Of a stretch of DNA of 64,000 nt, positions 7,038 to 57,316 are shown piece after piece. The notes under the pieces are model-generated. The model worked only from the letters and a program-made list of their open reading frames with translations, had not been told where the DNA came from and ran no database searches. Origin of the DNA: Magnetococcales bacterium (GTDB lineage Bacteria > Pseudomonadota > Magnetococcia > Magnetococcales > Magnetaquicoccaceae); NCBI GenBank assembly GCA_011089965.1, contig JAANAU010000007.1, positions 1-64,000 on the forward strand. Reading direction: 5' to 3'. Position 1 is the first letter of the stretch; every line of letters begins with the position of its first letter. The position numbers were made by a program, and so were the translations under genes.

Positions 7038-7122
7038 GTTTTGTCTCCTGCATGTTTGGATTGGAAAAAACAGGATAAGATTTCAAACCGCACCCATCAT
7101 GGGATGCGTCGTTCATGTCAAA

Positions 7123-7280
7123 GGGGTCCAGGGGCCATTGACCCCTGGTGGGATCCAAGGGCAACGCCCTTGGTGGGGTTTGGGGCAACGCCCCAACAAA
7201 ACCAATTCCACATTCCAAAATGGTTTTGATTCATGTTTAAAGTCCTGGGGGATGAATCCCCCAGACCCCCTCTTTTTTTC
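7123..7280 (+). repeat. Multi-hairpin intergenic element, copy A (full)
   Basis: This is a full copy of a dispersed element. In order it holds stem 1 CCAGGGGCC-ATT-GACCCCTGG, stem 2 CCAAGGGC-AAC-GCCCTTGG, stem 3 TTGGGGC-AAC-GCCCCAA, a weaker stem CCAAAA-TGG-TTTTG, a short AT-rich spacer, and a last stem CTGGGGG-ATGAAT-CCCCCAG followed by ACCCCCTC and T7. It lies between two minus-strand genes. Its last three bases fall in the stop codon of the glycosyltransferase gene (7279-7281). Confidence 0.9.
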
Positions 7281-8484
7281 AATGATTTAAACCAGTCACC
7301 CGTTGGAACAGCCGGATCTGACCCTGGGTGGTGGCCTCCCAGGAGAACCGTTCGGCATAACGCCGGGTTGCCACACGATCAGCTGGTATTGACAACAAAT
7401 CCTGCACAGTCATGGCAATTGCTTCGGGGGTGCGTTCCGTGATCAACCCACCCGCTTCGGGGGTCGTGACCACCTCAGGCGCACCCCACACATGGGTGGC
7501 AGCCACGCGCAGACCACACGCCATGGCCTCCAGCAACACATTCGCCCACCCTTCGCGACTTGAAGCCAGGACCAGCAGATCTGCTGCCGAGTAGTAGCGT
7601 GGCAAACTCTCCTGGGCCACCTGACCCACGAACGTCACCCGTTCCGCCACTCCCAGATCCCAAGTCAACTGACGCAACGACTCTTCCATCGGTCCGGCAC
7701 CGATGATCGCCAACCCCACATCCGGCAGCAAAGGCAAGGCACGTACAATCCGGTCATGTCCTTTGCGTTCGATCAGATGGCCGACCGACAGCAAGGTGGG
7801 ACGTTGCCATCCCAGACGTTGCCGTTCCGCTTCCCGATCCAGCGGTACAAACCGTTCCAGGTCCACCCCATTGCGCAATACCGTGATGCGGGTTTCGTCG
7901 ATGCCCATGTCCAGCAACACCCGTTGCAGCGCCGCACTGACCGTGATCAGCCCTGCCGCCCGTTTGGCCACATACCGGATCATGATACGGGGTATCTGAT
8001 GGGCAGGTATTTGGTTCAAGTCGCTGCCACGTGCCGTGATCACCACCGGTTTGTGCAGGTATTGTCCCAGCAGCCAGGCAGCCACGCCATCCGGATAAAA
8101 ATAGTGCGCATCGATCAGATCAAAATCAAACCCTTCCTGCATCCAGTTCCGTATGGTATTCAGCGCCCCCAGTGCCAGCAGCAAGGGTGCCGAACTCATA
8201 CCGATTTTGGGAATCAACACATAGCGGGGATGACGCACCTCAATACCATGATAGAATTCATGCTCCGGGGCCTGGTGTCCAATATGCGCATAGGGATTCA
8301 ACCGTGGATGGCGCACAGGAAACCAGGGCACCGGTGCCACCACTCGGGCCTCCACAGCTCCGGAAGCCACCAGATGTCGCAAACGTTCACCGACAAAGAT
8401 CCCGTGTATCGGATTGGCAGCATGGGGAAACAGGGTGGAAAAGGTCAGAATACGCACGAAACCAAAACCTTGGCTGGCAGACAT
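7279..8484 (-). CDS. Glycosyltransferase family 4
   Basis: This is a predicted GT-B sugar transferase of 401 residues, likely acting at the cytoplasmic face in capsule, exopolysaccharide or lipopolysaccharide synthesis. The N-terminal half has the acceptor-domain pattern (TLFPHAANPIHGIFVGERLR). The C-terminal half has the GT4 donor-site pattern VGHLIERKGHDRIVRALPLL and the loop SSREGWANVLLEAMACG, whose glutamate binds the nucleotide sugar. I chose the ATG at 8484, but no good ribosome site precedes it. The frame extends 13 codons upstream into a repeat element, giving an alternative start at 8523 (MNPPDPLFF). No other surface-sugar genes adjoin it, so the product is unknown. Confidence 0.85.
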   Translation of the reverse strand: MSASQGFGFVRILTFSTLFPHAANPIHGIFVGERLRHLVASGAVEARVVAPVPWFPVRHPRLNPYAHIGHQAPEHEFYHGIEVRHPRYVLIPKIGMSSAPLLLALGALNTIRNWMQEGFDFDLIDAHYFYPDGVAAWLLGQYLHKPVVITARGSDLNQIPAHQIPRIMIRYVAKRAAGLITVSAALQRVLLDMGIDETRITVLRNGVDLERFVPLDREAERQRLGWQRPTLLSVGHLIERKGHDRIVRALPLLPDVGLAIIGAGPMEESLRQLTWDLGVAERVTFVGQVAQESLPRYYSAADLLVLASSREGWANVLLEAMACGLRVAATHVWGAPEVVTTPEAGGLITERTPEAIAMTVQDLLSIPADRVATRRYAERFSWEATTQGQIRLFQRVTGLNH

Positions 8485-8493
8485 TCCATTATT

Positions 8494-8675
8494 GAAAAAA
8501 AAGAGGGGGTCTGGGGGATTCATCCCCCAGGGTTTTAATATTTTAATATTTTAATATTTTAATATTTTAAAAAATAAATTTTAAATATTATTTGTTTAAA
8601 AGATTAAAAGAGTAAAGTCCCGGGGTGGCTCTGCCCCTGGACCCCACCAGGGGGGTACCCCCCTGGACCCATAAT
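8494..8675 (-). repeat. Multi-hairpin intergenic element, copy B (inverted)
   Basis: This copy is in the opposite orientation and lies between hda and the glycosyltransferase. On the plus strand it reads from the A run and the CTGGGGG-ATTCAT-CCCCCAG stem (8511-8530), through a long AT-rich spacer, to the GC-rich stems ending with the perfect palindrome CCAGGGGGGTACCCCCCTGG. Stem 2 is degraded here (CCGGGG against CCCCTGG) and stem 3 is missing or unrecognisable. The end stem touches the 5' end of the glycosyltransferase frame. Confidence 0.85.
8533..8570. repeat. Tandem 8-base repeat TTTTAATA
   Basis: The unit TTTTAATA is repeated four times perfectly, with a partial fifth copy, inside the AT-rich spacer of repeat copy B. 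Such a run can change length by slippage and lies about 50 bases upstream of the glycosyltransferase start, so it could affect its expression. Confidence 0.85.
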
Positions 8676-20495: not shown

Positions 20496-20552
20496 GGACA
20501 ATTGCTCCTTGGGTCTGTTCTCCACAGCTTCACATGATATCCGCAACCATCA

Positions 20553-20751
20553 GGGGTCCAGGGGGGTTACCCCCCTGGTGGGATCCAAGGGCAACGCCCT
20601 TGGTGGGGTTTGGGGCAACGCCCCAACAAAACAAATGACACATTTCAAAATAATTTTGGTTTAAACATAAAAAATATTAATAAATTCTATTTTTTAAACA
20701 TAAAAAATAAAAACCCTGGAGGATGAATCCCCCAGACCCCCTCTTTTTTTC
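20553..20751 (+). repeat. Multi-hairpin intergenic element, copy C (full)
   Basis: This full copy has stem 1 CCAGGGGGG-TTA-CCCCCCTGG, stem 2 CCAAGGGC-AAC-GCCCTTGG, stem 3 TTGGGGC-AAC-GCCCCAA and the weak stem CAAAA-TAA-TTTTG. A long AT-rich spacer follows, then CTGGAGG-ATGAAT-CCCCCAG and T7. It has the same gene context as copies A and G. Compared with copy D, stem 1 differs at two paired positions (CC/GG to GG/CC) and remains fully paired. Confidence 0.9.
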
Positions 20752-20778
20752 AATACCTGGATCTCCACACCCGGTGTT

Positions 20779-44900: not shown

Positions 44901-46043
44901 ATGCTGCCCGACTCCCGTTCCATCCAGCGTTTTTTTTCGGGTTTGGCCGAGGTGTGTCCGGTGGCCGAACTGAGTCACTTCCATCTGATCCACTGGTCTG
45001 CCGAGCCGCCTTCCCCTTTGGATCCTTTGCGCGCCTCCGGATTCCGGGGCAAGGTGGTGGCAGCGCGCGCTTCATTGGCCGATGCCCTCCGCCACCATCA
45101 TCCGGGTCTGGTTGTCGTCCTGGATGACCACCCCACAGCCGGTGAGCAGGCCGAACAGGTCCTGATGGAGTTGCCCCAGGGCAAAGAGGCGGCCCGTCTG
45201 GCCATCGATACTGCCCTGGCCGCTCTGACCCCGACCGGCAAGCTGTGGCTGTTTGGCGAAAAGGAATCAGGCATCCGCTCCCTCTCCAAACGCTATTCCG
45301 GGTGTGAAACCGCCCTGTGCAAGGGCCATCTGCGTCTGCACACCCTGACTGCTGCCAGCCAGCCGTTGCCGGACAAAGGGGAGTCTGCACCCTTCCGGCC
45401 CCAGGCCGATGGTTTTGCCTGTCTGGAATACGACGGATTGCCGATTGCGGTGCGACCCGGGATCTTCTCCTGGCGTACCATCGATGCCGCCACCCGGTTG
45501 CTTCTGGAGGCAGTCAGAGAGACTCCGGGGCGCAGCGTGCTGGACTGGGGATGCGGCAGCGGGGTGATCGGCGTTACATTGGCCCGCCGTTTTCCAGAGA
45601 TCCAGGTGGTCCTGAGCGATGATCTGGTCACAGCCACCCGGTGCGCCCGGCGCACGGTGGAGATGAACGATCTGTCCGGACGCTGTACGGTGCTCACCGA
45701 AGATGGCCTGGGGCCGGCACTCTCCAGACAGAAATTCGATACCATTTTCACCAATCCCCCCTTTCATCGGGGCGTGCGGACCGATCACGAGGCCACACTG
45801 GCCTTTCTGGCCCAGGCCAATGCCTGTTTGAACACTCAAGGTTCGCTGTGGCTGGTGGGCAACCGTTTTCTCGATTACGGCACGCTCCTGCGGCAGCAGT
45901 TCGGCCAGGTCGAAGAGATGGAAGGAGACGACGCCTTCACCCTCTGGCGCGCACTCAAGCTGCGCAAAACCACCACCCATTCCCGCCCCTCCCTCTCCCA
46001 GATCCCGGTGGGTCGCTGGATCGAGGCCGATGCTTTGTCTTGA
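44901..46043 (+). CDS. RsmC/RlmG-type rRNA guanine-N2 methyltransferase
   Basis: This 380-residue enzyme has two halves, the N-terminal one being a degenerate methyltransferase-like domain. The C-terminal half has motif I VLDWGCGSGVIGVTLARRF and the catalytic motif FTNPPFHRGVRT. The NPPFH form is typical of RsmC and RlmG, which methylate guanine N2 in 16S or 23S rRNA; which one this is cannot be told. The ATG at 44901 lies 38 bases after the nitronate monooxygenase gene. A short inverted repeat CCAACC-AACA-GGTTGG lies 20 bases after the stop. Confidence 0.82.
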   Translation: MLPDSRSIQRFFSGLAEVCPVAELSHFHLIHWSAEPPSPLDPLRASGFRGKVVAARASLADALRHHHPGLVVVLDDHPTAGEQAEQVLMELPQGKEAARLAIDTALAALTPTGKLWLFGEKESGIRSLSKRYSGCETALCKGHLRLHTLTAASQPLPDKGESAPFRPQADGFACLEYDGLPIAVRPGIFSWRTIDAATRLLLEAVRETPGRSVLDWGCGSGVIGVTLARRFPEIQVVLSDDLVTATRCARRTVEMNDLSGRCTVLTEDGLGPALSRQKFDTIFTNPPFHRGVRTDHEATLAFLAQANACLNTQGSLWLVGNRFLDYGTLLRQQFGQVEEMEGDDAFTLWRALKLRKTTTHSRPSLSQIPVGRWIEADALS

Positions 46044-46141
46044 TCCAACGCACCTGCACACCAACCAACAGGTTGGAGAGCCGCAGACATATTATCGCCG
46101 GGAAAGAATCTTCTGTTACTGAGACTGAAAGGTGTTTCATG

Positions 46142-46170
46142 GGATGCCAGAATGAGCTATTCTGGCATCC
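46142..46170. repeat. Perfect 12-base inverted repeat at the duplication edge
   Basis: The arms GGATGCCAGAAT (46142-46153) and ATTCTGGCATCC (46159-46170) are perfectly paired around GAGCT. The right arm ends at 46170, and the tandem duplication begins at 46171. It has no T run, so it is not a classical terminator. It may mark the breakpoint of the duplication. Confidence 0.8.
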
Positions 46171-46829
46171 ATCACGCCGCAACTCAGGAGCAACCGCCAT
46201 GTCGCAAGCCGTGACCTTTGATGACGTGTGGAAGATGTTTCAGGAAAATGCCCAACAGTTGCAGGAAACCAGATGGCAATTCCAGGAGATGGTCCGCGAG
46301 AGCCGGGAGCGCGGCGCCGAGCTTGACCGTCGGATGCAGGAGACGGATCGCAAGATCCAGGAAGTTGCCCGACAAATGAAAGAGACGGACCGCAAGCTGG
46401 ATCGGCTCGGTGGACGGTTGGGTGAGTTTGTCGAGGGGTTGGTGGCTCCGGCCTGCAAAACTTTGTTTGCGCAGAGAGGCATTCCGGTTCACAAGGTCAG
46501 TCGTCGGGTGGAGGCCGACTTGCCGGAAGGCCGTCACATGGAGATTGATCTGTTCGTCGTGAACACCGACTCGGTCGCATTGGTAGAGGTCAAAAGCAAA
46601 CTGACGGTGGATGATGTGCGGGAGCATGTGCGTCGCATGGACGATTTCAAGGAGTTTTTTCCGGAGTATGCCGACAAACGTGCGGTTGGCGCGGTCTCGG
46701 CCATGGTGATCGACGAGCATGTTGCCCGTTTTGCCATCAAACAGGGACTGTTCGTGATCGAGCAGGCCGGTGACACCCTGCGCATGGCCAACGATGATGA
46801 TTTCATACCAAAATGCTGGTGAATCCTGC
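46171..46829 (+). repeat. Tandem duplication, unit 1 (659 bases)
   Basis: The segment 46171-46829 appears identical, base for base, to 46849-47507. A 19-base spacer (46830-46848) separates the two. The unit contains a complete gene and its ribosome site AGGAG. Identity stops abruptly at both ends, which indicates a recent duplication. Confidence 0.95.
46199..46822 (+). CDS. DUF3782-like coiled-coil/PD-(D/E)XK protein, copy 1
   Basis: This 207-residue protein has an N-terminal coiled coil (about 10-75; DRRMQETDRKIQEVARQMKE with a clear repeat) and a C-terminal domain with a PD-(D/E)XK-type metal site. Its Asp is in RHMEIDLFVVN and its Glu-x-Lys in VALVEVKSKL. Such proteins (DUF3782 and relatives) are known in cyanobacteria and magnetotactic lineages as predicted nucleases of unknown use. 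The ATG has AGGAG eight bases upstream. An identical copy follows at 46877. Confidence 0.75.
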   Translation: MSQAVTFDDVWKMFQENAQQLQETRWQFQEMVRESRERGAELDRRMQETDRKIQEVARQMKETDRKLDRLGGRLGEFVEGLVAPACKTLFAQRGIPVHKVSRRVEADLPEGRHMEIDLFVVNTDSVALVEVKSKLTVDDVREHVRRMDDFKEFFPEYADKRAVGAVSAMVIDEHVARFAIKQGLFVIEQAGDTLRMANDDDFIPKCW

Positions 46830-46848
46830 TTTCCTCTCTGGCGTTTCA

Positions 46849-47507
46849 ATCACGCCGCAACTCAGGAGCAACCGCCATGTCGCAAGCCGTGACCTTTGAT
46901 GACGTGTGGAAGATGTTTCAGGAAAATGCCCAACAGTTGCAGGAAACCAGATGGCAATTCCAGGAGATGGTCCGCGAGAGCCGGGAGCGCGGCGCCGAGC
47001 TTGACCGTCGGATGCAGGAGACGGATCGCAAGATCCAGGAAGTTGCCCGACAAATGAAAGAGACGGACCGCAAGCTGGATCGGCTCGGTGGACGGTTGGG
47101 TGAGTTTGTCGAGGGGTTGGTGGCTCCGGCCTGCAAAACTTTGTTTGCGCAGAGAGGCATTCCGGTTCACAAGGTCAGTCGTCGGGTGGAGGCCGACTTG
47201 CCGGAAGGCCGTCACATGGAGATTGATCTGTTCGTCGTGAACACCGACTCGGTCGCATTGGTAGAGGTCAAAAGCAAACTGACGGTGGATGATGTGCGGG
47301 AGCATGTGCGTCGCATGGACGATTTCAAGGAGTTTTTTCCGGAGTATGCCGACAAACGTGCGGTTGGCGCGGTCTCGGCCATGGTGATCGACGAGCATGT
47401 TGCCCGTTTTGCCATCAAACAGGGACTGTTCGTGATCGAGCAGGCCGGTGACACCCTGCGCATGGCCAACGATGATGATTTCATACCAAAATGCTGGTGA
47501 ATCCTGC
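46849..47507 (+). repeat. Tandem duplication, unit 2 (659 bases)
   Basis: This is the second copy of the duplicated unit, identical to 46171-46829. It includes the same upstream AGGAG and all 207 codons of the gene. After 47507 the sequence diverges from that after 46829. Confidence 0.95.
46877..47500 (+). CDS. DUF3782-like coiled-coil/PD-(D/E)XK protein, copy 2
   Basis: The protein is identical to that at 46199-46822, with the same coiled coil and EVK nuclease-type motif. It lies 54 bases after copy 1. A promoter outside the duplicated unit is not apparent for either copy, so both may come from one transcript. If they oligomerise through the coiled coil, the two products cannot be told apart. 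Confidence 0.75.
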   Translation: MSQAVTFDDVWKMFQENAQQLQETRWQFQEMVRESRERGAELDRRMQETDRKIQEVARQMKETDRKLDRLGGRLGEFVEGLVAPACKTLFAQRGIPVHKVSRRVEADLPEGRHMEIDLFVVNTDSVALVEVKSKLTVDDVREHVRRMDDFKEFFPEYADKRAVGAVSAMVIDEHVARFAIKQGLFVIEQAGDTLRMANDDDFIPKCW

Positions 47508-47540: not shown

Positions 47541-48065
47541 TCAATCCTGCCCCTCGCAACGGACAATCTGGCATGAGGACTCATCGGGCACCAGTCTGAC
47601 CAGCAGGGTCGTCATGGCTGCACTCTCTTCGGGATTCAACACCGCAGACACCTGATCGCGGGTAAGCTGCTTGACCGCCTGAAACGCCTGCTCGATCAAA
47701 GGCTGGCCCGTTGCACTCAAACGCACCGGCTTGACCCTTCGATCCCCCTCCACCCGTGGCCGCTCCACCAATCCCCGACTGGTGAGTTGATGCAACACCT
47801 TGGTCAATCCCCCGGAGGTGATCACCAAAGAACGTTGCAGTTGCGACGGGGTCAACTCATGCGGCCTTGGTGCACGCCGCAACGTGGCCAAAACATCAAA
47901 CTCGGCCGGACTCAACCCAAAACGGGCCATCTCCGTACAGGCCCGACCATACAACACCGTATACGCCCGATGCAGCGCCAACGTGAACGGCATCACCACC
48001 GGATCCAGAGATTCCGGCCAGCTCTCCCGGTGTTCGGCCAATATGGTCTGAATGAAACGATCCAT
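47541..48065 (-). CDS. MarR family transcriptional regulator
   Basis: This 174-residue regulator has the winged-helix region LSPAEFDVLATLRRA, LTPSQLQRSLVITSGGLTKV and the wing LVERPRVEGDRRVKPVRLSATG. MarR proteins repress genes for drug export until a ligand binds. It is divergent from the RND efflux operon that starts at 48331, so it is the likely local regulator. I chose the ATG at 48065; a longer frame to 48101 exists. Repeat copy E lies in the shared intergenic region. Confidence 0.9.
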   Translation of the reverse strand: MDRFIQTILAEHRESWPESLDPVVMPFTLALHRAYTVLYGRACTEMARFGLSPAEFDVLATLRRAPRPHELTPSQLQRSLVITSGGLTKVLHQLTSRGLVERPRVEGDRRVKPVRLSATGQPLIEQAFQAVKQLTRDQVSAVLNPEESAAMTTLLVRLVPDESSCQIVRCEGQD

Positions 48066-48130
48066 GCATGGATCCCTCGCAGAAACGCATCCAAACCGCA
48101 CCCATTTCCGGATGCGTTGTTTTTATCACA

Positions 48131-57038: not shown

Positions 57039-57106
57039 GGGGGGAGTGGAGGAGCCAAACACGGAGAGATCCGGAACGCAATCGGCCAAGTATGAATGAC
57101 ATCATT

Positions 57107-57302
57107 GGGGTCCAGGGGCCTATGGCCCCTGGTGGGATCCAAGGGCAAAGCCCTTGGTGGGGTTTGGGGCAACGCCCCAACAAAACAAATCACACATTCC
57201 AAAATGGTTTTGGTTTGAACAAAAAAAATTATAAAATTATTTTTTTAAAGAAAAAATCAAAACCCTGGGGGACGAATCCCCCAGACCCCCTCTTTTTTTT
57301 TA
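57107..57302 (+). repeat. Multi-hairpin intergenic element, copy G (full)
   Basis: This full copy has stem 1 CCAGGGGCC-TAT-GGCCCCTGG, stem 2 CCAAGGGC-AAA-GCCCTTGG, stem 3 TTGGGGC-AAC-GCCCCAA, the stem CCAAAA-TGG-TTTTGG, an AT-rich spacer and the end stem CTGGGGG-ACGAAT-CCCCCAG with T8. It lies between the SAM hydrolase start and the end of the fliT-like gene. It is the most regular copy in the window. Confidence 0.92.
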
Positions 57303-57316
57303 ATACTTGAAAACAC

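Follow-up and report, generated by a model that had tools for sequence, protein, structure and literature searches.

Tandem duplication and amplification in bacteria give direct repeats in the same orientation, with a short or filler junction between the copies. As to the kind of protein involved here, the parts of Hartmann et al. 2016 (PMC4786415) that deal with DUF3782 present it as the coiled-coil portion of prokaryotic PD-(D/E)XK endonucleases; a partial DUF3782 coiled coil (that of Tcar0761, which has no nuclease domain) was solved as a trimer, and nonad beta-layers are given there as absent from bacterial members. The window analysed here, a stretch of 64,000 nucleotides from the genome of a bacterium of the magnetotactic-group Magnetococcales, contains two adjacent, identical copies of a gene whose product resembles those endonucleases, since it begins with a coiled coil that scores above the cut-off of the Pfam family and is followed by a PD-(D/E)XK domain. 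It departs from the account in those parts of PMC4786415 in that the gene belongs to a large lineage-specific expansion, with a variable number of QETDR-type repeats and recurrent tandem copies. With bacterial tandem duplications in general the locus shares the direct repeat, the common orientation, the young copies and the single short or filler junction, but here the unit comprises just one gene, cut close to its leader and stop codon, and duplication recurs for one family across the order. We consider it likely that the pair is a young head-to-tail tandem duplication of a gene-sized unit (leader, RBS and ORF) encoding a solitary DUF3782 nuclease, in a dispersed and repeatedly tandem-duplicating family.

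The duplicated unit and its junction

A 25-mer scan of the window found positions 46171–46829 and 46849–47507 (both +) to be identical over 659 bp, on the same strand and with a spacing of 678. No other exact direct repeat of the window comes near this pair in length, no difference was found between its copies, and a perfect match of such length is far beyond chance. Each unit holds a leader, a ribosome binding site and the whole ORF, running from 28 bp 5′ of the start codon to 7 bp 3′ of the stop codon. The two ORFs (46199–46822 and 46877–47500, both +) encode identical proteins of 207 aa (P0001 for copy 1), and the Shine-Dalgarno motif AGGAG, as read from the sequence, lies 8 nt upstream of each ATG (46186–46190 in copy 1 and 46864–46868 in copy 2, both +). 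The perfect 659-base tandem duplication reported in the earlier note, with its 19-nt spacer, both 207-codon ORFs and their ribosome sites, holds to the base.

The spacer (TTTCCTCTCTGGCGTTTCA, 46830–46848, +) differs from both outer flanks of the pair and is unique in the assembly, no second match having been found there with up to 2 mismatches allowed; copying of the spacer from another site in the genome was therefore rejected. No microhomology was seen at the junction, and no third close copy of the gene was found in the assembly, in which the nearest relative is a paralogue of 57% identity on contig C66. If the preferred reading of a young duplication is right, the ends of the unit would have been joined with the 19-nt filler in an illegitimate or replication-slippage junction.

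The genome is a draft of 3.66 Mb in 80 contigs (98.9% complete) whose closest named relatives are Magnetococcales MAGs. Contigs C3, C42 and C78 start at most 100 bp from a dispersed repeat (see below), which is common when short reads are assembled. The assembly thus looks like a short-read one, in which reads probably did not bridge the 659-bp repeat. The exact copy number may have been set by the assembler, and two is best taken as 'at least two'. Since the spacer is unique and unlike both outer flanks, the copy-spacer-copy junction should derive from reads, and the tandem junction is probably real. The division of the draft into 80 contigs and a repeat longer than short reads would suit a single cellular copy that had been doubled by the assembler; however, a spacer of this kind does not arise from a simple overlap-merge error, a loop in the assembly graph should itself have needed reads over the junction, and comparable pairs with substitutions between their copies exist in independent MAGs. 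Such doubling is very improbable in our view, and the pair as such is unlikely to stem from misassembly.

A predicted coiled-coil nuclease

In a Pfam profile search, PF12644 (DUF3782) matched residues 40–106 with 26.1 bits (gathering cut-off, 24.4); NERD (PF08378; 17.9 bits) and PDDEXK_10 (PF07788; 13.4 bits) scored below their gathering cut-offs of 22.1 and 21.2, respectively. Among 45 homologues, D117 and K132 never varied, and conservation of both E79 and E130 was 90% or more, which yields the E-D-ExK pattern of PD-(D/E)XK nucleases. The AlphaFold2 model (mean pLDDT 91.5) consists of a single helix (residues 7–92) followed by an alpha/beta domain in which the order of the elements fits the PD-(D/E)XK core fold, and the top PDB matches in Foldseek were mostly PD-(D/E)XK enzymes (2vld/EndoMS, of the EndoMS/NucS type, and the Bax1, Can2 and BspD6I nucleases), with a probability of 1.00 and E-values of only about 1e-3. 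The 207-aa protein is accordingly predicted, from profile, motif conservation and model, to be a nuclease in which a DUF3782 coiled coil precedes a PD-(D/E)XK domain that retains its putative catalytic residues, much as the earlier note had supposed. It has the PD-(D/E)XK core in common with EndoMS/NucS, Bax1, Can2 and the NERD and PDDEXK_10 nucleases, as judged by fold search or weak profile matches, but is set apart from them by its single long N-terminal helix, TM-scores of about 0.25–0.40 (by query length), identities of about 10–21% and the sub-threshold profile scores.

Expression of the pair

The likely promoter of copy 1, seen in the sequence as TTTCAT, 17 nt and TATTCT (46135–46163, +), lies outside the duplicated unit, and the start of the unit at 46171 is close to the transcription start predicted from the −10 box (46158–46163). 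The same boxes with the same spacing occur at the same place in the homologue of the congener G007, and similar ones were seen by eye ahead of many family members. A stricter consensus promoter scan did not find the site at 46135–46163; a weak consensus site is present within the end of copy 1 (46770–46798). Over the −10 box lies a perfect 12-bp palindrome with a 5-nt loop (46142–46170), which ends where the unit begins and may be an operator; the RNA fold z for 46130–46200 was −2.6. The palindrome was rejected as a repeated mobile element, as it occurs once in the genome, and as an intrinsic terminator, there being no T run and no terminator called.

Because the unit starts right after the promoter and palindrome, copy 2 has a ribosome binding site without a predicted main promoter. 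It is probably co-transcribed with copy 1, in which case the single promoter ahead of copy 1 would drive both ORFs and the pair would at present do no more than raise the amount of one oligomeric nuclease.

The 5′ boundary at 46171, where transcription would start after TATTCT, and an end 7 nt after the stop codon would also be expected if copy 2 had come from reverse transcription of the copy-1 mRNA. This start is a predicted one, however, and it would be strange for such a copy to land directly next to its parent gene; moreover, unit starts vary among the other arrays of the family, the promoter being included in some (−93 in L037, −68 in L040), and the junction in L081 shows DNA microhomology, with AAACC shared, as judged by eye. 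An origin through mRNA is exceedingly improbable in our view.

The genomic slot and the question of selection

The pair is flanked on the left by a gene for an rsmC-like methyltransferase (44904–46043, +), found in 8 of the 11 genomes of the genus, and on the right by one for a MarR-like regulator (47541–48101, −). In G007 this slot is empty, the two genes being adjacent with about 50 bp between them; in G008 the gap is of about 475 bp and contains no gene; in another congener, G010, it is occupied by a two-gene PADLOC candidate, PDC-M31A/B, a candidate phage-defence pair. The latter (L149, 2034–4108, −) comprises an AAA ATPase and a partner, both PDC-M31A/B-like. The window gene has its nearest homologue (86%) in G007 at a different site, flanked by HD-GAF and rhodanese genes; G010, G005 and G004 are without a copy at that site. 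As both slots differ in occupancy among congeners, gene copies come and go, and presence at the rsmC-like/marR slot is lineage-specific. Precise insertion ends were not found at the empty slots, the intergenic DNA being too diverged.

The earlier note had also suggested a dosage effect of current selection. Amplification under present selection for nuclease dosage (for example under phage or stress challenge) would agree with both ORFs being intact and having ribosome binding sites, and with a slot that accepts accessory genes such as the G010 pair. Against this, copy 2 is without the predicted main promoter, and arrays recur throughout the order and vary widely in the age of their copies, which requires no selection now; in addition, only 1 of 84 ORFs adjoining family members matched PADLOC at 1e-15. 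Dosage selection is thus improbable, and that part of the earlier note was not sustained. With the window protein itself, PADLOC gave only a coiled-coil match to JetC (E = 0.006), which does not identify it as a known anti-phage gene. Membership of a defence island was rejected, since the 84 neighbouring ORFs showed no enrichment in defence genes.

A dispersed family with recurrent tandem arrays

Among 41 genomes (that of the source and 40 relatives), the DUF3782 nuclease gene was present in 28, with up to 23 matches per genome. The direct neighbours of family members were varied ordinary genes, so the gene looks solitary; in Magnetococcales, the family is solitary, dispersed and multi-copy. 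A phage or plasmid origin was rejected, as the search gave nothing from phages, a single partial match to a plasmid and one distant viral contig. No paper on this nuclease family in Magnetococcales was found in the literature.

The fetched loci included 14 further same-strand arrays, 13 from Magnetococcales (L037 to L046, L081, L101 and L108) and one from Candidatus Methylumidiphilus (L129). Four copies are present in L042 (2338–5355) and in L108 (755–3645), and the pair in L043 (1927–3718) is 99.5% identical over 752 bp. The neighbours in an array were mostly each other's closest kin in the tree, clear exceptions being the L044 pair and the first member of L042. This indicates independent duplications. 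L039, L041 and L043 entered the tree as single rows, either because their nuclease domains did not differ in the part taken for it or because a single copy represented the pair. As a rule, the repeat unit began some tens of bp upstream of the ATG and ended 0–20 bp past the stop codon; it reached further downstream in L038, L039, L042, L108 and L129. Copies within an array often differed by in-frame indels in the coiled coil. The window pair looks like the youngest case of this recurrent pattern.

The earlier note took perfect identity to mean either a recent event or conversion, an alternative that the zero differences in 659 bp and the sister arrays uphold. Clustering of third-position differences was used in place of N-terminal dS, which was inflated where ORFs had been extended 5′ of the start codons and where the repeats were misaligned. 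After correction, clustering was significant in 3 of 13 other pairs (L040, p < 0.0002; L041, p = 0.0008; L129, p = 0.0024), in which long clean tracts stand beside diverged ones; it was weak in L042 and absent from the remaining nine, among them L039, which has zero differences to test. This suggests conversion tracts in older pairs, and duplication and conversion probably both act in the family. In the window pair, where nothing differs, a fresh duplication and a complete conversion would look the same. An older tandem pair held identical by gene conversion (concerted evolution), its spacer and flanks having already diverged, would accord with the patchy pairs and with a weak alignment of the spacer to the G007 leader (p about 0.025, uncorrected). 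However, the whole unit would have to have been converted without one difference being left, and the similarity of the spacer to the copy-1 leader was not significant (p about 0.2), so that the spacer was rejected as a diverged copy-2 leader. Such an older pair is doubtful. The pair has the adjacent, same-strand, near-identical copies and the novel junction expected of a recent tandem duplication, and fresh duplication is the simpler reading; the joining would then be too recent for substitutions, or would have been followed by conversion. In time the pair should be lost, be homogenised or diverge, often via in-frame changes in coiled-coil length, as in the older arrays.

Taken alone, the window pair would be an ordinary young duplication. 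Its setting is an uncharacterised nuclease family that, within a single bacterial order, has expanded, become dispersed and undergone tandem duplication repeatedly, and the arrays of graded age offer a natural view of duplication, conversion and coiled-coil length change; the function of the DUF3782 family deserves testing. One conjecture, which we hold to be improbable, is that these genes are self-amplifying: units would duplicate in tandem and reach non-orthologous slots, with the nuclease promoting recombination, while conversion would homogenise the nuclease domain and in-frame repeat changes would diversify the length of the coiled coil, the window pair being a fresh step in this process.

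Other repeats in the window

A dispersed, hairpin-rich intergenic repeat of about 200 bp occurs in the window at about 7110–7310, 20550–20760 and 57105–57310, with the core TCCAAGGGCAANGCCCTTGGTGGGGTTTGGGGCAANGCCCC and the end CCCCCTCTTTTTTT. It matched no Rfam family. The core has 52 copies in the genome at up to 3 mismatches, 39 of them perfect, and none in the reversed control. A short A+T repeat with a period of 8 bp (TTTTAATA, 8533–8562) adjoins a partial copy of it.
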